Positions 285-17,917 of a DNA stretch of 64,000 bases are shown here, in pieces. Positions within the stretch are counted from its first letter, which is position 1, and each line of letters opens with the position of its first letter. The notes under the pieces were generated by a model that was given only the letters and a program-made list of their open reading frames with translations, ran no database searches and was not told the origin of the DNA. Both the position numbers and the translations under genes were made by a program. This DNA comes from Methylocystis sp. L43 (lineage in GTDB: Bacteria; Pseudomonadota; Alphaproteobacteria; Rhizobiales; Beijerinckiaceae). The stretch covers positions 1 through 64,000 of the forward strand of contig NZ_JADNRA010000016.1 in NCBI RefSeq assembly GCF_015709525.1, in the 5' to 3' direction.

Positions 285-1228
285 TGAGGTCACTCCCTTT
301 CGCAAGAATTAACTTGAGTTTGACGTTTCGAACTTCGCACTGGTTAGCAATGCGCCGCTGGCTCGTCGCTCTTGCGAGCGCCGCTGTTCGTCCCGGCCGA
401 AGCTGTTTGAACTGTGAATGGCTATTTCATCTGCTCAGTAGCATGCGAGCCGTTTTGACGCTTGCTCCGTTCGGATGAGGTCCTAGGTAAGCTTGCGTCC
501 TCTGCGTTGGTCCTCGACAGCGGAGGGAGATTCGCGACTGCTCGCGGCTCGGATCAGAGTCTCGGGCCTTTTCAGGCATGGAGCAGCGAGCGGACTTACG
601 ACAGCGACATCGGGGAGAGATAAGTTACATTAATCGTGCTTGATGCTGATCTGCGCGCCTCGAGCAACGGGATTTGGCCGTGATGGATTGTGGCCGAGAT
701 CCAAAGGCCGTCGACGGCGGCTTGTCGGCGCGCCGGCGATCTCGGCACCGACCTTCTCAGTCGGACATGGCGGGCCGATCACGATCAGCACGCCGGTTAC
801 GATCCACACCAACAGCGGCGGCACGTCCGATCAAATACCGATCTCGCGCGGAAAGTCGGCGCCCAGATGGAGCAGCTCGCGCGCGGCGTCGTCTGCGACG
901 AAGTTAGGTTCCAACTTCGGACCGGCGGCGTAATTAACGAGGCTGCGCTAATGCTCGGCTGGGGTGGAATTGGCTTTGAGCCGCTCGGCAATTCGGTTCA
1001 TGAGTTCCAGGCGAATAACCTCAAATCTTGTGCCGGTCAGTATCGAGTCGGCGGACGGCGCGCCGTCGTCACTGGCCGCTGGTCACAAGAGGGGATGGAA
1101 ACGGTGGTGGGCGAACACTTTTGGACGCAAAGCCGCCGTTGTTTCCGTCCCTGCGAGAAGTCGGCTACATTGCGACGCGACCGAGGTCTGTCTGCTCTCT
1201 CTCCCCAAATTGAAGATGGAGACTGCCG
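285..1228. other. Gene-poor stretch, no supportable gene
   Basis: About 0.94 kb between the partial gene and the DUF1254 gene. Short overlapping open frames occur on both strands, but none has a convincing start, ribosome binding site or family resemblance. One copy of a 32-base repeat shared with position 3814 lies at 1092-1123. The region could be decayed coding DNA. The promoter of the downstream exported protein should lie in its last 200 bases, but I cannot place it. Confidence 0.5.
1092..1123 (+). repeat. 32-bp direct repeat, copy A
   Basis: This stretch matches 3814-3845 in 31 of 32 positions, same orientation, 2.7 kb apart. The only difference is A versus G near position 23. Both copies lie in gene-poor DNA on either side of the DUF1254 gene. 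The flanks share only a few more bases (ACAAG just upstream). It may be a remnant of a mobile element end or of a duplicated gene fragment. No transposase is visible nearby. Confidence 0.7.
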
Positions 1229-2647
1229 TTGCATCTGCATTATGGAAAACAGATTGTCGCCATAGTGGCTCTGGGGCTCGGATCAGTCGCGTTCCAGCAA
1301 GTCGCCCTTGCCGCCGACCCTGTCACCGAACAGGAAGCCTATGAGATCGGCAAGGAGGCCTATCTCTATCTTTATCCGATGATCAGCATGGACGTGACTC
1401 GAAGAGTCATGACCAATGTTGAGCCGGGGAAGAAGCCGGGCGCAGGGCCGATGAACGAATTCCACCATGTGCGGACATATCCGCCGGCGGAGTTTCGGGA
1501 TGTCGTGCGCCCCAATTTCGATACGCTCTACTCCATCGCCTGGCTCGATCTGACCAAGGAGCCGATCATCCTTTCGACGCCCGACACGAAGGGGCGCTAC
1601 TATCTGTTGCCCTTGCTCGACATGTGGACCGACGTCTTCGCGGCGCCTGGCAAGCGCACCAGCGGCGCGCGCGCCGGCGATTTCGCCATTGTCCAGCAGA
1701 ACTGGAAAGGGCGACTCCCCGCCGGCGTAGAGCGGATCGATGCGCCGACGCCCTATGTCTGGATCATCGGGCGCACGCAAACGAACGGACATCAAGATTA
1801 TAACGCCGTCCACGCCGTTCAGGACGGCTATAAGCTCACCCCGCTTTCGCGGTGGCGCAAACCGCCAAAGCCCGTGGCGACGAAGGTCGACCCGAACGTC
1901 GACATGAAAACGCCGCCGCTCGAGCAGGTCGACGCCATGCCGGCGGGCAAATTCTTCTCCTATGGCGCCGAGCTGATGGCAGCCAACCCGCCTCATGTGA
2001 CGGACTGGTCGCAACTCGCGCGGCTGAAGCGCATCGGCATCGAGCATGGCAAAAGCTTCGATTTCGACTCGGCCGATCCCGCCGTGAAGCGCGCGCTTGA
2101 GAAGGCGCGAGCAGATGGGCTTGCGCTGATGAAGGAAAAGACGCCGACGCTGGCGCGCGTCGTGAACGGGTGGCAGATGAACACCGATACGATGGGCGTC
2201 TATGGAGACTACTATTTGAAACGCGCCATCGTCGCGCAGGTCGGGCTTGGCGCGAACCAGCCCGAGGACGCGATCTACCCCCTCAATCTCGCCGACAGCG
2301 ACGGCAAGCCGCTCAAGGGCGAGGAGAAATACGTCCTGCATTTCACGAAAGCCGAGATGCCCCCCGTCGACGCTTTCTGGTCGATTACGCTTTACGACGG
2401 CCAGGGCTTTCAAGTCGGCAATGCGCTGAACCGCTTTGCGATCGGCGACCGCGATCCGCTGAAATACAACGCCGACGGCTCGCTTGATCTTTACATCCAG
2501 AACGCGAGTCCGGGAGCCGAAAAGGAGTCCAACTGGCTTCCTTCCCCTGCGAGTGGAAGCGAAAATCTCACGATGCGCCTCTACGCGCCGAAGCCGCCGG
2601 CGCTTGACGGCCGCTGGGCGCCGCCGGCTGTCAGACCTGCAGAATGA
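1229..2647 (+). CDS. Exported DUF1254/DUF1214 domain protein
   Basis: A 472-residue protein resembling the DUF1254 plus DUF1214 family (function unknown, usually periplasmic). The start is TTG at 1229, chosen because GGAG lies about 8 bases upstream and because it opens directly into a signal peptide (hydrophobic core about residues 9-22, Ala-rich cleavage site near LAADP). The N-terminal domain has the family-typical aromatic stretch YLYLYPMISMD (about 46-56) and NFDTLYSIAWLDL (about 96-108). The C-terminal domain has the FWSITLYDGQGF motif (about 384-395). It is monocistronic, flanked by gene-poor DNA on both sides. Length is normal for a two-domain member. The large opposite-strand frame over it is a GC-codon shadow. 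Cargo or substrate cannot be predicted. Confidence 0.85.
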   Translation: MHLHYGKQIVAIVALGLGSVAFQQVALAADPVTEQEAYEIGKEAYLYLYPMISMDVTRRVMTNVEPGKKPGAGPMNEFHHVRTYPPAEFRDVVRPNFDTLYSIAWLDLTKEPIILSTPDTKGRYYLLPLLDMWTDVFAAPGKRTSGARAGDFAIVQQNWKGRLPAGVERIDAPTPYVWIIGRTQTNGHQDYNAVHAVQDGYKLTPLSRWRKPPKPVATKVDPNVDMKTPPLEQVDAMPAGKFFSYGAELMAANPPHVTDWSQLARLKRIGIEHGKSFDFDSADPAVKRALEKARADGLALMKEKTPTLARVVNGWQMNTDTMGVYGDYYLKRAIVAQVGLGANQPEDAIYPLNLADSDGKPLKGEEKYVLHFTKAEMPPVDAFWSITLYDGQGFQVGNALNRFAIGDRDPLKYNADGSLDLYIQNASPGAEKESNWLPSPASGSENLTMRLYAPKPPALDGRWAPPAVRPAE

Positions 2648-4224
2648 AGATCAAGCTATGATGGGGCGAGGCCCCGGTGTTCTTATCGCGTGGTCAAAGG
2701 TCGGCTCGTGTGAAGCAGTCGCGCGTAACAGGCCGTTCATGACCCCCGCGGCGCTTCGGGGCCCGGAGCTGGGCTTGAGACACTCGGCCCATCTGTTGTT
2801 TTGAGCAGTTTCAATTCAAGCGTTCAGCCTGCATCGCTTCGGGAGACTTCGCGACGCCGTAGCTCAATCTCAACGAGATCTAGGGCTCCTCGAGCGCCTC
2901 AGCTTTCCCAATCGTTCCTGCGTTATCATGGGAGGGTTTTACGCCGTGAGGCTCCGCTTTGCCCCGCATTTCCCTCTTCTGGCGAGCGGCGACATCCATT
3001 GCGCGATCTCGAGCTTGCCTGAGCCTCCGCGTGAGATCCTTCAACTATTCTATTGGTAGCTCTGCGATTTCAGGGGAGCGCGCTACTCCCACGATTTCAT
3101 GCTCGAGCTCGTAGTCGAGAACGATGATCTTCGCCGCCAACTCGCCGAGCGCGCAGACACGCCGGCCGCGTAGGCGTCGCTCGATCTGCTCTCTCCGGAA
3201 CGCTTCGCCGAGCTCGATCGGTTGGTCGCATCCGGTTAGCTCGAGCGCGTGAAGGCCAGGGCGAGATCCAGCGCCGATATTGGCAGGTGTTACCTTGTTT
3301 CTGACGATGGAATTCTCTGAGCTCTCTGTCCGCGCAGTGTTTATAAACATTCAATAAACAGAACCGTCTGCTGGCCTGACGCTGGGTTTACGGAGCAGGT
3401 GTTGCGAATGGAAAATCACCGGGCACAGGCAGCATCCCCATACGAAACAGCGTCCGCTTTATTTGTAGGGTGAACGTGGGGCTTTTAAGGGGTTTGTGTT
3501 TTCATATAGAAGTGCTCACTCTCCGGCGGCGAGAAAAGATTTTGACCTTGGTCGGATCGACGACCGGCCATCGAAGCTGCGTTCCGTGGGCTCGAGAAGC
3601 TTGCAGACGACGACCGTGCCGTCGCCGCCGGCGTTGTCGGCGATCTGACGCGCCAAGGTTGTATGGCGTTGCGGACAGTTTTGATCCGTCTGCTGGCCGG
3701 GGTTGGCAACCTGGTCGCCGTCGAGCATCTCGATGGCGCGTAGCACACACAGCGCCGTCGTGCGCTCCTCACACGCATCGAAAATCTAACGCTTGGTTCC
3801 CGCGACAAGTGAAGGGATGGAAACGGTGGTGGGCGAGCACTTTTGTCCCTCGGTTCTGAGCGACCCCTCCTGAACTAAGATCAAGGAAACATCATCATCT
3901 TAGGCCGAGGAGATGCCGCCGTCATAAGGCGAATCGTCCATTGCGGCCGATCTGTCCATCCCGTTGCCGAATTGCAACTGCTTCCATAATTTTTCCCATC
4001 CTAGCGCGCGAACTACATGCAGTTCGTTGACTTCGCGGCGCTTGATGCCTGACAGTTCGTTGACCTTTATAGGCAGCAGGATTTTGGGACATCAAACGCG
4101 AGCACAAGCCCCATTTGGGCAAGCAATCGCTGTCTCGTCCATCCATGCACTTATCGAGGGCGCAGTATACGGCTTAAGCCGATGCGCATTGACGGAAGTA
4201 TGAGTTAGGCGTTCGAGAGGGTCT
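2648..4224. other. Gene-poor stretch with possible decayed genes
   Basis: About 1.6 kb with no gene I can support. On the minus strand around 3516-3746 a frame reads plausibly (ATG at 3746, RQIADNAGGDGTVVVCKLL) but has no clear ribosome binding site and is blocked upstream by a stop. It may be a gene remnant. Around 3100-3170 a plus-strand frame reads like a short coiled coil (LVVENDDLRRQLAER) and then hits a stop. Copy B of the 32-base repeat lies at 3814-3845. Two near-identical CAGTTCGTTGAC boxes occur near 4020 and 4050. Confidence 0.5.
3814..3845 (+). repeat. 32-bp direct repeat, copy B
   Basis: Partner of the copy at 1092-1123, with 31 of 32 identical bases and the same orientation. 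It sits in gene-poor DNA about 380 bases upstream of the patatin-like gene. No flanking target-site duplication or terminal inverted repeat is evident by eye. Confidence 0.7.
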
Positions 4225-5445
4225 ATGAGCAGCATGAGTAGTGCGTCGCGATGGGCGCGTCTTTTGATCATCGCGGGAATTGTCGTCTCGCTCCTGTCTG
4301 CCTGCTCTTCTTTTGATCGTCGCGGAGCCGTCCCGCCGGCCGAAAGACGTGACGCGGCGGTTCTTCGCATCGCCAACGCGCGGTTCTTCGTCGATCAACC
4401 GGCGGCTATGGCGGCAGAGCAGGAGCTCGCGCTCAATCGCGAGGCCAAAAGTCTTGGGATCAGCAGAGGTGGCATATTGCCCACCGCGCATCTCCTGTCG
4501 CTTTCCGGCGGCGGCGACAATGGCGCCTTTGGCGCGGGGCTGCTGGTCGGATGGACAGCTCATGGCGACCGACCGAAATTCAAGCTCGTAACAGGAGTAA
4601 GCACCGGCGCGTTGATAGCGCCATTCGCCTTCCTCGGTCCCAACTATGACAGTGCGCTGACGGACGTCTACACGAATATCAACCCGTCGAAGGTCTATGA
4701 GAAGAGATTTTTAGCGACAGCAGCACTGACTGAGGACGCGCTGTCGGACTCCACTCCGCTCTATGAGACGATCTCGCATTATGTCGACGAAACGATGCTT
4801 GCGACGATCGCAGCCGAGTATCAGAAGGGACGTCTGCTGCTGATCCAGACGACGGATCTCGACGCCGGCCGGCCCGTGCTTTGGAATATTGGAGCCATCG
4901 CCGCCAGCGGCGACCCCAAATCGCTCGGACTTATTCGTCATGTTCTGCTCGCTTCTGCGTCGATCCCGGCGGCTTTTCCGCCCGTTCTGTTCGACGTGGA
5001 AGCGAATGGAAAAACGTATCAGGAAATGCATGTCGATGGCGGGGCCGTCAGTCAGGCCTTTCTTGTTCCGCCGAGCCTGAACACGCGTGACGTCCTGCAA
5101 CGGTCTGGATTTCAAAGGAAGGCTGTTGTCGCCTACATCATCCGCAATGGTCGCTTGACAGCGGAATGGAGCGATGTGGACCGGTTAACTCTCCCAATCG
5201 CCGAAAAGGCGGTCTCGACCCTGATCAACTATAATGGCGTGGGCGATCTGTATCGAATGTATCTCGTCACCCAGCGAGCCGGAGCCACGTTCAACCTCGC
5301 CTATATCGGCGATGATTTTAACGCGAAGCACCCAGAGGATTTCGACCAGGGATACATGCGCGCTCTGTATCGCTTTGCTTACGAGAAAGCGGTGAAAGGT
5401 TACCCATGGGACCATTCACCGCCCGGGTTTGCTCCCCGTCGGTGA
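4225..5445 (+). CDS. Patatin-like phospholipase, lipoprotein
   Basis: A 406-residue patatin-like serine hydrolase, expected to cleave acyl esters of lipids with a Ser-Asp dyad. An N-terminal hydrophobic segment (12-24) ends in a lipobox LSAC with Cys27, so it should be a lipoprotein. The glycine-rich oxyanion loop SGGGDNGAFGAG is at about 94-105, the nucleophile elbow GVSTG at 124-128 (Ser126), and the catalytic Asp in HVDGG at about 270. All family-essential elements are present. Start ATG 4225 has GAGAGG just upstream; a second ATG four codons later is possible. It stands alone between gene-poor regions. Substrate and role (membrane remodelling or effector-like activity) are open. Confidence 0.9.
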   Translation: MSSMSSASRWARLLIIAGIVVSLLSACSSFDRRGAVPPAERRDAAVLRIANARFFVDQPAAMAAEQELALNREAKSLGISRGGILPTAHLLSLSGGGDNGAFGAGLLVGWTAHGDRPKFKLVTGVSTGALIAPFAFLGPNYDSALTDVYTNINPSKVYEKRFLATAALTEDALSDSTPLYETISHYVDETMLATIAAEYQKGRLLLIQTTDLDAGRPVLWNIGAIAASGDPKSLGLIRHVLLASASIPAAFPPVLFDVEANGKTYQEMHVDGGAVSQAFLVPPSLNTRDVLQRSGFQRKAVVAYIIRNGRLTAEWSDVDRLTLPIAEKAVSTLINYNGVGDLYRMYLVTQRAGATFNLAYIGDDFNAKHPEDFDQGYMRALYRFAYEKAVKGYPWDHSPPGFAPRR

Positions 5446-5897
5446 GGCAGAGCGCCGAGCGAACACAACCACGCCACAGATTGAGCCGCCGATCCTGCCT
5501 CGGACCTCGACGATAACTCACTTTCGAAAGCGATATCTCAAGTCACCGGCCCGGCTTTTGTTACCTGTCGTGGCCGAACTTTTGGCAGTGCTTGTCTCGG
5601 TGCGCGGGGTCGTGGCCGACGAGATCAGGAGCCAGATGCAGGCTCGGCAACATGTCGGGTCGAGGTTGCGATAATGCTCCAGCGGGGCCCCGGCAACTCG
5701 GTTAATTCTTTCGAAGTCATCGGCATTGACCTTTCGCCGGTCCAGATCGGAAGCGCCGACGTGGCATCGGCGCCGACGCTCGGGGAAATCCATCGGGCGC
5801 GGTCAATGGGGCTTCGATCAGACGGCGCGCGTCACCGGCGGCGGGAGCAAGACGGCGGAGGTCAACGGCGGCTGGCGCTTGGCCGCTTAGATCGCCG

Positions 5898-5915
5898 ATG
5901 TGCGCTAGCGCACAT
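5898..5915. promoter_or_regulatory. Perfect 18-bp palindrome, possible operator
   Basis: ATGTGCGCTAGCGCACAT is a perfect inverted repeat with no spacer, typical of a dimeric regulator site. A TATAGT box lies about 30 bases downstream (5946-5951), followed by the paired hairpins and a small open frame. The regulator is unknown. Confidence 0.4.
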
Positions 5916-5979
5916 TTGAGCTTGCGCCCCGAGCGCCAACTCGGCTATAGTTTACGGGCACAGAGGCACATGGAGCGAT

Positions 5980-6010
5980 CGCCGGCAGGGCTTAGAGCAC
6001 CCTGTCGGCG
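5980..6010 (+). other. RNA hairpin 1 with TAGAGCA loop
   Basis: An 11-bp stem (left arm 5980-5990, right arm 6000-6010, one G-U pair) closes the 9-base loop CTTAGAGCA. A second hairpin with almost the same loop follows 12 bases later, which makes chance folding less likely. Confidence 0.45.
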
Positions 6011-6022
6011 GTTATCAGCGAC

Positions 6023-6044
6023 GGCGGGGGTAGAGCACCCCGCC
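6023..6044 (+). other. RNA hairpin 2 with TAGAGCA loop
   Basis: A 7-bp perfect GC stem (GGCGGGG with CCCCGCC) closes the loop GTAGAGCA. It shares TAGAGCACCC with the preceding hairpin and lies 31 bases before the ATG of the small frame at 6076, so it could be a leader structure. Confidence 0.45.
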
Positions 6045-6075
6045 AAACGCCATTCGCTTACCAATTGGACGTCTC

Positions 6076-6246
6076 ATGCCCGCCAACGCCACATCATCGA
6101 CAAGTCGAACCGCATTCGATTGGATTCGGTCGAAGGGCTATGCCCTCGACAAAGATGGATATCTTCACCGGGCGCCGGCCGCTCAGGCGTCGACTGCTCG
6201 CCGCGGGGCGGTCTCCAGAACGCCCATAAGCCATACGAGACCGTAG
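6076..6246 (+). CDS. Doubtful small open frame, 56 codons
   Basis: ATG at 6076 opens a 56-residue frame beginning MPANATSSTSRTAFDW and ending at a TAG inside the CATACG repeats. The first 30 residues read like a protein (Arg/Asp/Gly-rich, FDWIRSKGYALDKDGYLHR). The tail is low complexity. There is no clear ribosome binding site and no family resemblance. It may be the truncated 5' end of a lost gene, since it lies directly after a palindrome and two hairpins. Confidence 0.2.
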   Translation: MPANATSSTSRTAFDWIRSKGYALDKDGYLHRAPAAQASTARRGAVSRTPISHTRP

Positions 6247-6598
6247 ACCATACACCGGCTGGTAAGCCATACGGCTTGAGCGTGAGCGTGAGCGAGCATA
6301 AGCCATACGAAGCTGTAGGCCATACGGAATGCAGTCAATAAACGAACCAATCTGAAGAAAGCCCGTGGGCTATCTGAAGATCGAGCGACGATCTGGAGCG
6401 TTCGGCTGCAACACTTATAGCATGGTCGAAGTAGATCAGGTCGCGTAGGGCGGCGCGCTGGCGTCGATCTGGAACACATGAGGGTCAAAAGCGGGCCAGA
6501 GGCGTGCATTTCGTAAGGAAATATCGAGTGACCGAGACGCGTGACGCGGTCGTGATGCGACCTTGTTCGAAAACCTTGCCTTGCTAACTTGATTTTCT

Positions 6599-6674
6599 TG
6601 GTGGGCCGGGCAGGACTCGAACCTGCAACCAGACCGTTATGAGCGGCCGGCTCTAACCATTGAGCTACCGGCCC
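6599..6674 (-). tRNA. tRNA-Ile (CAU anticodon, lysidine type)
   Basis: A 76-base cloverleaf on the minus strand with a 7-bp acceptor stem (GGGCCGG/CCGGCCC), D-arm GCTC/GAGC, anticodon loop CTCATAA, T-arm GCAGG/CCTGC and encoded CCA. The CAU anticodon with a GGTTAGAGC D-region and a non-initiator acceptor fits the minor isoleucine tRNA, whose C34 is changed to lysidine by TilS to read AUA. Elongator tRNA-Met is the alternative. Its 3' end faces the gene-poor region. Confidence 0.85.
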
Positions 6675-6831
6675 CGAGACGGGGAGGCCCCTCCTATACC
6701 GCAAGCCGGGCGCACGCAATATTGGGCTTGCATCACTCGCTCTGACCCTGTGCTCGCGTTCGCCCTGCGCGCTGTGTACATGCGTCAGCCTGTCTTGCCA
6801 CGGCCCGCGCCGCGCCTGTAAGGCTTTTGGT

Positions 6832-7485
6832 ATGGACGAACATGACGCGCGCGCGGCGATCGTTGACGCCGCGCAAGAGATGGAGCGGCTGGGTCTCAAT
6901 CACGGCTCTGCGGGCAATCTGTCCCTGCGCGTCTGCGACGCCGCGCTCGTCACGCCGAGCGGCGTTCCCAGCCGCGAACTCTCGCCCGATGCGATCGCGC
7001 GCATGCCGCTCGCGGGCGATGGCGCTTTCGACGGTCCGCTGCCGCCGTCGAGCGAGTGGCGCTTCCACCTCGACATCTATCGCGCCCGACCGGACGTGAA
7101 CGCCATCGCGCATATGCATTCGCCCTATGCGACGACGATCGCGACCTTGCGGCGCGATATTCCGGCCGTGCATTACATGATCGCGGCCTTCGGCGGCCCG
7201 ACCGTGCGCTGCGTCGATTACGCGCCCTACGGCACGGCTGAACTGTCGCGACTCGTCGTGGCGGGGCTCGCGGATCGCGATGGCGTGCTGCTCGCCAATC
7301 ACGGCGCCATCGTCACCGGCGCGACAATGCGCAGAGCATTGTGGCGCGCCGTCGAACTCGAAGCGCTCGCGCAAGTCTTCTACCTCGGCGCGCTCGCCGG
7401 CAAACCCGTCGTGCTTTCCGACGAGGAAATCATGCGCACGGTGGAGCGCTTCAAAAACTACGGAACGCGTAAGAGCTCAGAATAA
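6832..7485 (+). CDS. Class II aldolase/adducin family protein
   Basis: A 217-residue zinc-dependent aldolase of the fuculose-1-phosphate aldolase type. Visible catalytic features are Glu75 in SSEWRFH (general acid/base), the zinc ligands His94 and His96 in HMHSPYATTIA, and His157 in NHGAIVTG. The phosphate-binding N-terminal NHGSAGNLS (about 23-31) is also present. Size matches single-domain aldolases. Start ATG 6832 has only a weak AAGG upstream. The next named metabolic gene is MtnA (8205-9293, convergent). This pairing suggests cleavage of 5-methylthioribulose-1-phosphate or 5-deoxyribulose-1-phosphate to DHAP plus an aldehyde (the DHAP shunt). MtnP and MtnK are not in the window, so this remains inference. 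Confidence 0.85.
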   Translation: MDEHDARAAIVDAAQEMERLGLNHGSAGNLSLRVCDAALVTPSGVPSRELSPDAIARMPLAGDGAFDGPLPPSSEWRFHLDIYRARPDVNAIAHMHSPYATTIATLRRDIPAVHYMIAAFGGPTVRCVDYAPYGTAELSRLVVAGLADRDGVLLANHGAIVTGATMRRALWRAVELEALAQVFYLGALAGKPVVLSDEEIMRTVERFKNYGTRKSSE

Positions 7486-7582
7486 TTCGCGCAATTAACC
7501 TCCAACGCATTGACGTTTTTAGCGCCTAAATGATAGGTTGTGACGTCAGGTGAGCCGTGAGCGACAAGTTCGCCACGCGCCG

Positions 7583-7632
7583 AGGGGATGGAGTGCCCCC
7601 CTTAACCGCCGCAAAGGCTGATGACTCCTGCT
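7583..7632 (+). promoter_or_regulatory. Fluoride riboswitch (crcB motif) aptamer
   Basis: The sequence matches the crcB aptamer layout. GGGGATGGAGT (pseudoknot strand GGGG plus P1 5' strand GGAGT) is followed by CCCC (pseudoknot partner), TTAACC, the P2 hairpin GCC-gcaaa-GGC, and TGATGACTCCTGC carrying the P1 3' strand ACTCC. The order, joining bases and all three pairings agree with characterised fluoride riboswitches. It lies 56 bases upstream of the TTG start of a small membrane protein gene on the same strand. Confidence 0.9.
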
Positions 7633-7642
7633 TCGATCGTAA

Positions 7643-7680
7643 CCGCGATTTCACCAATCGCGGGTGCAAGAAGGAGGAGT
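7643..7680 (+). promoter_or_regulatory. Riboswitch expression platform and SD
   Basis: An 8-bp hairpin (CCGCGATT/AATCGCGG, 7643-7663) has no following T-run, so it does not look like an intrinsic terminator. The ribosome binding site AAGGAGGAGT (7671-7680) contains AGGAGT, complementary to ACTCCT (7624-7629) in the aptamer P1 strand. Fluoride-stabilised P1 would then free the ribosome binding site. Translational ON control is inferred from this pairing. Confidence 0.5.
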
Positions 7681-7687
7681 GTAAGCT

Positions 7688-8134
7688 TTGAACCAAGACC
7701 TCGCCGTTTTTATTGTTCCCTTCGCCCTTATTCTCGCTTGCGGTCTACTAACCGCCGGCGGCCTTTACTTCATGGACATTCGCTACCTAAAGAATGCCCG
7801 CTATGCGGTCGCGTCGCTCGCGGCGGGGGCCGTCGTTCTCGCTGTCCTTGAGATCGTCCTATACGGCAGTTCGGTTGGATTTCTCAAAGAGCAGCAGCTC
7901 AAAACTTCTCTCTGTGAACTCGACGCCGAAAGCGCCCATCCCGAGGCGCGCCTCGGCGTTGACCCGGTTGTTCTCTACCAAGCTATCACCGGCTGCATGA
8001 AGGAAGCCGGCTACGAATGGGATGCAGGCCATCGCCACTGCAAGGATGCGCCGGTCGCCACAAATCACTTCTGTTACGCGCCTACAGCTTCATTTGACCG
8101 CGCAATCACCGTACTTCAGATGAGCTTTGAATAG
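7688..8134 (+). CDS. Fluoride-riboswitch-controlled small membrane protein, unknown
   Basis: A 148-residue protein of unknown family. The TTG start at 7688 is set by the strong AAGGAGGAG about 9 bases upstream, directly after a fluoride riboswitch. Two membrane segments are visible (about 6-29 and 38-60), separated by a short basic loop. The remaining 85 residues should lie on one side of the membrane and contain four cysteines (76, 103, 118, 129), with CMKEAGYEW around 103-111. It is neither CrcB/Fluc (longer, four membrane helices) nor a ClC antiporter. Its role in fluoride tolerance is inferred only from the switch. Downstream gene mtnA is convergent, so it is monocistronic. Confidence 0.8.
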   Translation: MNQDLAVFIVPFALILACGLLTAGGLYFMDIRYLKNARYAVASLAAGAVVLAVLEIVLYGSSVGFLKEQQLKTSLCELDAESAHPEARLGVDPVVLYQAITGCMKEAGYEWDAGHRHCKDAPVATNHFCYAPTASFDRAITVLQMSFE

Positions 8135-8204
8135 AAAGAAAGAAGCGCTTCGTGGATGCGAACGCGCGCCGAAGTCGGAATATTCAGCGCCGGCGAACTG
8201 TTCG

Positions 8205-9293
8205 CTAAACGCCAACGTCCGGGAACAATCCACTCAGCCCTTCCTCCGTCGCGGCGCAGACGCCGCGCTCGGTGATCAGCCCCGTGACGAAGCGGGACGG
8301 CGTCACGTCGAAGCTGAAATTACGCGCCGGAGACCCATCGGGCGTGAGCTGAATTTCAATCGGCGCGCCGTCGGCGCCGCGTCCGCTGATATGGGTGACT
8401 TCGCGCGCGGCGCGCTCTTCGATCGGAATGTCGCGGACGCCGTCGGCGATGCGCCAGTCGACGGTCGAAGACGGCAGGGCGACATAGAAGGGCACGCCAT
8501 TGTCATGCGCCGCGAGCGCCTTGAGATAGGTGCCGATCTTGTTGCACACGTCGCCGGCGCGCGTCGTGCGGTCGCTGCCGACGATGACGAGATCGACAAG
8601 ACCATGCTGCATCAGATGGCCGCCAGCGTTGTCGGCGATGATCGTATGCGGAACGTCTTCGCCCAGCAGTTCAAAGGCCGTGAGGCTCGCCCCTTGGTTG
8701 CGCGGACGCGTCTCGTCGACCCACACATGTATCTGGGCGCCTTGCCGCGCGGCCGTGTAGATCGGCGCCAGCGCCGTGCCCCAATCGACGGTGGCAAGCC
8801 AGCCGGCGTTGCAATGGGTAAGGATGTTGATAGGACCGTCGTTACGACGCGCCTTATGAATGAGTTCGGCGCCGAAGCAGCCGATGGCTTGGCAGGCGGC
8901 GACGTCTTCCTCCGCGATCTTGGCGGCTTCCGCATAGGCAAGGTCGGCGCGGACCGAGACCGGCGCCGCGAGGAGCAGAGTGCGCAGCCGATCGAGCGCC
9001 CAGCGCAGATTGACGGCTGTCGGCCGGGTGGCGAGGAGGGCGGCATAGGCGACGGCCAGGGCGGCATCGCTCGGATCGCGCGAGGCGGCGAGCGCCATGC
9101 CGTAAGCGCCGGTCACGCCGATCAGCGGCGCGCCGCGCACCGTCATCGTGCTGATCGCTGCAGCGGCGTCTTCGCAGTTCGCGAGCGTTTTCGTCTCGAA
9201 GCGATGCGGGAGCACAGTTTGATCGATGACATGCACGCGCCGCCCGTCCGAATCGAGCCAGATCGTTCTGTAGTCACGGCCGTTAATTCTCAT
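8205..9293 (-). CDS. mtnA: S-methyl-5-thioribose-1-phosphate isomerase
   Basis: A 362-residue MtnA, interconverting 5-methylthioribose-1-phosphate and 5-methylthioribulose-1-phosphate in methylthioadenosine salvage. The eIF2B-like fold is supported by [17 protein letters not shown] (about 49-65), the catalytic Cys161 in [12 protein letters not shown], and the catalytic Asp241 in [18 protein letters not shown]. Both match the Cys/Asp pair of characterised MtnA. Start ATG 9293. A C-terminal extension after the usual NPAFDVTP-like element (here [19 protein letters not shown]) is normal length. The convergent aldolase at 6832 may be the next enzyme. Other Met-salvage genes are absent here. Confidence 0.93.
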
Positions 9294-17840: not shown

Positions 17841-17917
17841 GCGCCCGTAGCTCAGCTGGATAGAGCGTTGCCCTCCGAAGGCAGAGGTCAGAGGTTCGAA
17901 TCCTCTCGGGCGCGCCA
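17841..17917 (+). tRNA. tRNA-Arg (CCG)
   Basis: A 77-base cloverleaf with a 7-bp acceptor (GCGCCCG/CGGGCGC), D-arm GCTC/GAGC, anticodon stem TTGCC/GGCAG with loop CTCCGAA, T-arm AGAGG/CCTCT and encoded CCA. Anticodon CCG reads CGG arginine codons. Confidence 0.97.

Follow-up and report, generated by a model that had tools for sequence, protein, structure and literature searches.

A fluoride riboswitch recurs upstream of an apparently undescribed two-helix membrane protein family in alphaproteobacterial methanotrophs

Introduction

What does a fluoride riboswitch control when the gene behind it encodes none of the familiar fluoride exporters? The question is raised by a locus of Methylocystis sp. 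L43 (contig NZ_JADNRA010000016.1, positions 1 to 64,000; this whole 64,000-nucleotide stretch is referred to here as the window). A first-pass annotation had placed a crcB-motif aptamer directly upstream of a 148-residue membrane protein with two helices and four cysteines, and had suggested that the product may be a new fluoride-response protein, perhaps a sensor or a channel accessory. According to the available portions of the sources, fluoride switches earlier exposed genes of unknown role or wrong name, as in the case of EriC (PMC7266159), and the account given of bacterial fluoride resistance centres on export, pH, phosphate, metal ions and enzymes (PMC11139923). Our literature searches returned nothing joining the fluoride riboswitch with Methylocystis, or fluoride with crcB and methanotrophs, and no description of the protein family was found in the literature searched. 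The switch class is already known, and the protein family behind it is apparently undescribed.

Results

Scanning the window with cmscan identified a single match to the fluoride riboswitch aptamer (RF01734, crcB motif), located at positions 7575–7637 of the forward strand, on which the leader and coding features of this unit also lie. The match covers the full model (1-64) and scores 56.3 bits (E 6.3e-13), above the gathering score of 34 bits that serves as the curated cut-off for RF01734. The Rfam consensus core elements GAUGGxGU, AACCGCC and GGCUGAUGACUCC are all present in the window, and across 23 aligned leaders (the window's included) this core is invariant save for a single AACCGCC column, where two leaders have T. 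The annotated aptamer is therefore borne out, with its proposed start at 7583 falling inside the match. The aptamer is separated by 50 nt from an open reading frame that begins at 7688 with a TTG codon, and a GGAGGAG upstream of this codon ends 8 nt before it, within a Shine-Dalgarno region (GAAGGAGGAGT, 7670–7680) recognized from sequence, fold and leader comparison. In the interval between the two, sequence and fold define a leader hairpin formed by CCGCGATT and AATCGCGG (7643–7663).

The open reading frame (7688–8134) comprises 148 codons, has homologues, and is subject to purifying selection, with dN/dS of 0.05-0.19 for those nine of ten pairs in which it was computable. Hydropathy peaks at about residues 5–23 (7700–7756) and 40–58 (7805–7861) agree with the two predicted membrane helices of the first-pass annotation, and an AlphaFold2 model built from five sequences (pLDDT 69) contains a helix at residues 3–30 and a long helix at 37–83. 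The C-terminal part of the model folds into a small domain that is largely helical and includes two short strands, with pLDDT block means of 66-88 from residue 61 on. This C-terminal domain (residues 67–148; 7886–8131) carries C76, C103, C118 and C129, which are the conserved four of the protein's five cysteines, as C18 lies within helix 1; the earlier count of four holds for the conserved cysteines and not for the total. Their spacing, C-x(25-29)-C-x14-C-x10-C, is kept in 65 of 66 members, the exception (L002) having one cysteine replaced by F. The residues invariant across all 30 rows of our family profile (A2), namely C76, E81, P85, R88, C103, G108, W111, C118, N126, P132 and R138, are confined to the C-terminal domain, where the conserved cysteines would form disulphides.

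Searches of the predicted protein against Pfam and NCBIfam returned no family up to E 10, and those against PHROGs (best E 0.072) and PDB sequences (best E 0.4) returned nothing useful; a fold search with the model, weak at pLDDT 69, gave no match at E <= 0.001 in the PDB and viral libraries. At the level of sequence, then, the protein is indeed neither CrcB nor ClC, as first proposed. We rejected CrcB/Fluc on the lack of a PF02537 match among these Pfam results and on the two hydrophobic peaks, and a CLC-F antiporter on the lack of any Pfam family, the chloride channel domain included, in a 148-residue protein with two such peaks. In most members measured, the inter-helix loop carries a net positive charge, which favours a topology with both ends outside. 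Three distant relatives of the C-terminal domain (L162, L164 and L167; E 2e-10 to 2.5e-15) open with a hydrophobic stretch and, as judged by eye, a lipobox-like LSGC or LAGC, a reading under which the domain is exported. This topology and these relatives make it probable that the gene encodes a small protein of the inner membrane, whose termini both lie outside and which has a disulphide-stabilised periplasmic domain.

A scan of GTDB contigs returned five relatives, including Methylocystis and a Methylocystaceae bacterium, and 35 of 61 genomes (the window's own and its relatives) have a match, every one of them in the window's genus. When the 30-row profile was applied to 397 genomes belonging to the window's GTDB family, 118 matches were found in 54 genomes. 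Full-length members occur in only three of the 43 genera sampled (g1, which is Methylocystis, g66 and g64); two additional genera gave weak C-terminal matches only, and a draw of 385 genomes from the class gave two weak C-terminal partial matches outside the GTDB family. One sequence set omitted L001_6000, L076_4641 and L025_1518 as fragments or sequences with odd ends. The family had no phage match, occurred on one plasmid, and had no IMG/VR relative by the single peptide pattern used; in the data seen it is therefore mostly chromosomal, and on the same grounds a phage or plasmid origin was rejected.

We then compared the positions of family members with those of RF01734, mapped in all 39 g1 genomes (37 positive) and in those g66 and g64 genomes that have a family match. 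Twenty-four of the 118 family matches start 33-63 nt downstream of the aptamer on the same strand (nine in g1, 11 in g66 and four in g64), and a further ten are the second gene behind a switch, 638-746 nt away, each placed in tandem after a first family copy. From 112 RF01734 matches, a few of them below cut-off and one outside the GTDB family, and genomes of about 4 Mb, a rough estimate of the directly linked pairs expected by chance is <0.01, against the 24 observed, which are non-independent through inheritance. On this sequence comparison, the recurrence excludes a chance pairing of switch and gene. The refuting case named in the first-pass annotation, homologues that never follow a fluoride riboswitch, did not arise for the orthologue clade of the window in g1 and g66, in which 20 of 20 matches are linked (one, in G035, with an internal stop), and all four full-length first copies in g64 are linked as well. 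In the family at large, by contrast, 84 of the 118 matches do not lie behind a switch, and it is therefore not a fluoride family throughout. The suggestion of a new fluoride-response protein is to this extent narrowed, and it is well supported by comparison, through a pairing that recurs in three genera and in several neighbourhoods, with known fluoride genes in nine of the 24 cases. By comparison alone, we regard it as highly likely that the gene is under fluoride control; the recurrence of the switch-protein pair in related methanotrophs, sometimes beside fluoride-resistance genes, makes the protein a very probable new component of fluoride defence.

How the leader might act is suggested by its pairing potential. 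In the RF01734 class, an ACUCC strand of the aptamer makes the fluoride pseudoknot. In the window, the corresponding 3' strand (ACTCCT plus GCTTC, 7624–7634) has the Shine-Dalgarno region as its alternative partner in the MFE fold and in the leader comparison: the fold (leader L006) shows 6 bp, one mismatch and then 4 bp between the two, with the leader hairpin nested inside this alternative helix. At least seven contiguous pairs between CTCCTNN and the Shine-Dalgarno region are in register in 17 of 23 leaders, and the helix appears in many single-strand folds by inspection. As CTCC/GGAG pairing follows from the two consensus sequences, the informative test lies in the next three positions, or 69 cells. 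Of these flanking cells 61 are paired, compared with 57.6 (sd about 0.95) under permutation of partners (10/5000 as high), a figure uncorrected for kinship and biased toward pairing by the choice of the best-fitting GGAG site in each row. Fixing the last GGAG gave 61/69 compared with 57.6 (4/5000 as high) and fixing the first gave 59/69 compared with 55.8 (6/5000 as high), kinship again being uncorrected in both.

TGC stands opposite GCA in 13 of the 23 leaders; a compensatory A-U pair replaces G-C in three (L011, L012 and L092) and a U-A pair replaces C-G in one (L090). Pairing departs from this scheme in six leaders, through a mismatch right after CTCCT in L003, L006 (the window), L009 and L013, and through a broken register in L140 and L001. 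No terminator-like site was found in 7440-8240 and no sigma-70-like promoter near the leader, making transcriptional termination less likely than translational control. Given the conserved register with partial compensation and the lack of a terminator in that interval, the best reading of the leader is a translational ON switch, which we consider likely. When fluoride is absent, the ACUCC strand would pair with the Shine-Dalgarno region, sequestering it and blocking translation; when fluoride and Mg are bound, ACUCC would be locked in the pseudoknot, the Shine-Dalgarno region released and the protein made. The features of the leader give good reason to expect these two states.

The window's own genome also holds two paralogues of the gene that lack a switch (C34 and C25), as a spare-copy arrangement calls for; no vestigial switch was found upstream of the own-genome paralogues (C and B). 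Unswitched copies occur in 37 of the 39 g1 genomes and, with the unswitched majority of family matches noted above, they indicate that the basic role of the family need not concern fluoride. Their neighbours (mutS, pal/xseA, aroC and others), read by eye, have no common theme. Beside one such paralogue (L081), a cobalamin riboswitch at 5861-6060 lies just behind the family gene and is followed by an 804-aa open reading frame. In a tree of 66 of the 77 distinct sequences (partial ones dropped), the presence of a switch requires three changes, compared with a mean of 18.9 after shuffling, and is thus strongly clustered, although the linked rows do not form one clade, those from g64 being placed outside the clade that holds the window. 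From this unrooted tree, the family may have had the switch ancestrally, with losses in several lines of paralogues, so that the term "spare copy" may read history backwards. Family copies have also decayed: besides the internal stop in G035, a further switch in G007 precedes a truncated copy, and G164 has a switch and a gene that are both decayed, next to an intact second copy. The G164 remnant keeps a motif fragment, yet gives no RF01734 match at E <= 10. These decayed copies imply that the gene is dispensable.

We propose that the locus is a one-gene unit of a fluoride-stress regulon in alphaproteobacterial methanotrophs, and that its product would be the copy, induced by fluoride, of an envelope protein specific to methanotrophs and otherwise encoded by unswitched genes. 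The induced copy would keep a fluoride-disturbed envelope process running, beside F- export (CrcB), H+ balance (antiporter) and a spare enolase. A precedent for switched spare copies is the FRM operon of Enterobacter cloacae, so far as the available text of its description goes (PMC5533749). Judging from paralogues and operon partners, we rank this role first among those considered, and hold it tentatively. For the explanation as a whole, comprising the regulon unit, the translational switch and an envelope protein with a periplasmic domain as the induced copy, we estimate a probability of about 40%.

Gene neighbourhoods bear on this reading and on its closest competitor. In the window, the gene stands alone: Pfam assigns its neighbours to a class II aldolase gene (6832-7485) on one side and a convergent IF-2B family gene (8205-9293), which we take to be probably mtnA, on the other. 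Queries with CrcB, DUF190, antiporter, Usp, eno and efflux proteins gave no tblastn match at 1e-8 in the 64-kb window. The window contains tRNA genes at 6602-6674 (-) and 17841-17914 (+), the former about 0.9 kb upstream of the riboswitch; L002 has a tRNA at the corresponding place. Neighbours were surveyed in 23 linked loci and the G164 remnant locus, with the window treated separately and some fluoride-gene labels obtained by tblastn with neighbouring proteins. Linked copies span aldolase/mtnA, crcB, plasmid, antiporter, pal and rpsO/queC neighbourhoods (mtnA, pal, rpsO and queC assigned by eye). Among g66 genomes, a pal match lies close by in seven linked loci, unlike the g64 loci L107, L159 and L160, where the switched gene is near rpsO/pnp, with a queC-like gene in two, as read by eye.

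For nine of the 24 linked copies, the stretch of the locus that was read contains crcB or a Na+/H+ antiporter, accompanied in some by DUF190, uspA and enolase. Six of them (L003, L004, L005, L071, L072 and L074) have crcB within a few genes, immediately adjacent in L003 and L071, and four (L072, L073, L075 and L161) have the antiporter, L072 having both. In L075 the family gene is the first of the antiporter operon, and in G033 the order is switch, family gene, antiporter, uspA. Such proximity could mean that the protein is an accessory subunit that binds and tunes the CrcB channel or the antiporter, with the periplasmic domain serving as a lid or as an assembly factor. The partner varies from locus to locus, however, and in 15 of the 24 linked loci, the window included, there was no match to crcB, antiporter, uspA, DUF190 or eno in the part read; CrcB, moreover, is in known cases a small channel that functions by itself. 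An accessory subunit is thus a rather unlikely alternative, and we continue to prefer an induced copy of an envelope protein.

The most extensive neighbourhood is on the Methylocystis MJC1 plasmid (NZ_CP107560.1, L086), where antiporter, uspA, crcB, DUF190, the family gene, a HEAT-repeat gene that has a switch of its own, and eno lie within about 7 kb, surrounded by IS elements. This plasmid fluoride island (84987-109430) contains three switches, the lowest-scoring of which (40.3 bits, above cut-off) precedes the HEAT-repeat gene; the gene next to eno is annotated as formylmethanofuran dehydrogenase subunit A. In the FeB_33 loci L004 and L005, a small metal-binding protein (SMBP; PF16785 in L004, a relative in L005) is encoded between the family gene and crcB-DUF190, and a divergent switch in L004 precedes enolase.

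Fluoride switches were also noticed away from the family. At L109 (G061:C2:268000-281000; 1056-6863), a switch is followed by genes for an MFS transporter, an outer-membrane efflux protein, an HlyD-type adaptor and, by eye, a Na+/H+ antiporter, a putative switch-controlled tripartite efflux system; many other Methylocystis switches that we read precede similar outer-membrane or MFS genes, again by eye. The g64 genomes G298 and G287 have eight (one below cut-off) and five RF01734 matches, more than most genomes scanned. A match below cut-off (31.9 bits) at G000:C10:30703-30762, with similar scores in four other genomes, is followed by reading frames that give no clear target gene.

The distribution of the family raises the possibility of a tie to methane oxidation. 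PF02461 (pMMO/AMO) was found in 51 of the 397 genomes, and these belong to exactly the three of 43 genera that have full-length family members; in a draw of 398 genomes from the phylum, only one genome outside the GTDB family was over cut-off. A predicted periplasmic cysteine domain in such organisms might protect pMMO, methanol dehydrogenase or their metals from fluoride, perhaps released as MMO co-oxidises fluorinated gases; according to the available text, the sMMO of Methylosinus trichosporium defluorinates trifluoroethylene (PMC8913905). Against this, g1 and g66 look like close kin, and kinship between genera can explain the pattern largely. Within g64 the association is not significant (full-length member in 4/10 pMMO genomes compared with 0/5 others; Fisher about 0.15), eight g1 genomes with family members have no PF02461 match (four of the eight being >=98% complete), and a comparison of coordinates found none within the linked loci. 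We thus treat co-distribution with pMMO as a lead only, and a shielding role as unlikely. Its fullest version, a lineage-specific periplasmic fluoride-defence protein tied to methane oxidation, induced by entering or MMO-released fluoride and shielding the periplasmic or membrane oxidation machinery, is slightly more doubtful still; if true, such shielding would protect against fluoride in a way that differs from export, pH balance and spare enzymes.

Compared with an induced envelope protein, two further readings fare worse. Two helices with an outside domain make a shape common to many sensors, and the periplasmic domain might sense fluoride/HF or external conditions and signal across the membrane; this is improbable, as a 148-residue protein whose termini both lie outside would have no space for a signalling domain in the cytoplasm, the riboswitch itself already senses fluoride, and no regulator was seen by eye as a constant neighbour. 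A new kind of fluoride channel or exporter built from oligomers of the two helices would suit a membrane protein under a switch whose commonest targets are exporters in the available part of PMC11139923, but it is the least probable reading, given the crcB in the same locus in 6/24 linked copies, a switched CrcB in the window's own genome, the lack of a Pfam match and the location of all fully invariant residues in the C-terminal domain; nothing in the present analysis favours channel function.

Discussion

Our results place the locus within a known regulon with an unfamiliar target. Like other members of the RF01734 regulon, it has an aptamer far above the cut-off, and some linked loci include crcB, antiporter or enolase, and uspA, which are listed switch partners in the portions of the sources available (PMC11139923 and PMC5533749, respectively). 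It differs in its target, a family unmatched in Pfam and NCBIfam, among PDB sequences below E 0.4 and in fold searches at E <= 0.001, and full-length in three methanotroph genera only among the genomes sampled. In the same way, the E. cloacae FRM operon (ppaC-uspA-eno-gpmA-crcB-orf5249) is a switch-controlled block that has crcB, uspA and eno with transposases nearby, a setting shared by the MJC1 plasmid; the operon's description, in the available text, names no such two-helix protein, the product of orf5249 aside (PMC5533749), and the methanotroph block adds the antiporter, DUF190, the HEAT-repeat protein and the family gene.

Likeness to individual proteins is similarly partial. CrcB/Fluc is also a small membrane protein under a fluoride switch, but it has four helices, whereas the window protein has two and an extra four-cysteine domain. 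The family protein is present in addition to CrcB wherever both were seen. PmoD, a copper protein of methane and ammonia oxidisers, is described in the available text as having a signal peptide, a two-cysteine cupredoxin domain and a C-terminal helix, and it shares with the window protein an association with methanotrophs and a membrane-anchored periplasmic domain with conserved cysteines (PMC6189053). The window protein instead has two N-terminal helices followed by a mostly helical domain, in a model of limited confidence. Given this different arrangement of helices and the lack of a PDB fold match at E <= 0.001, at that confidence, we did not assign it to PmoD/AmoD.

The fluoride switch at this locus points to a whole undescribed family of methanotroph proteins, and because switched and unswitched copies share genomes, a direct test of their roles is possible. 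If confirmed, the family would add an envelope component to bacterial fluoride resistance, and would be relevant to deploying methanotrophs against fluorinated gases.
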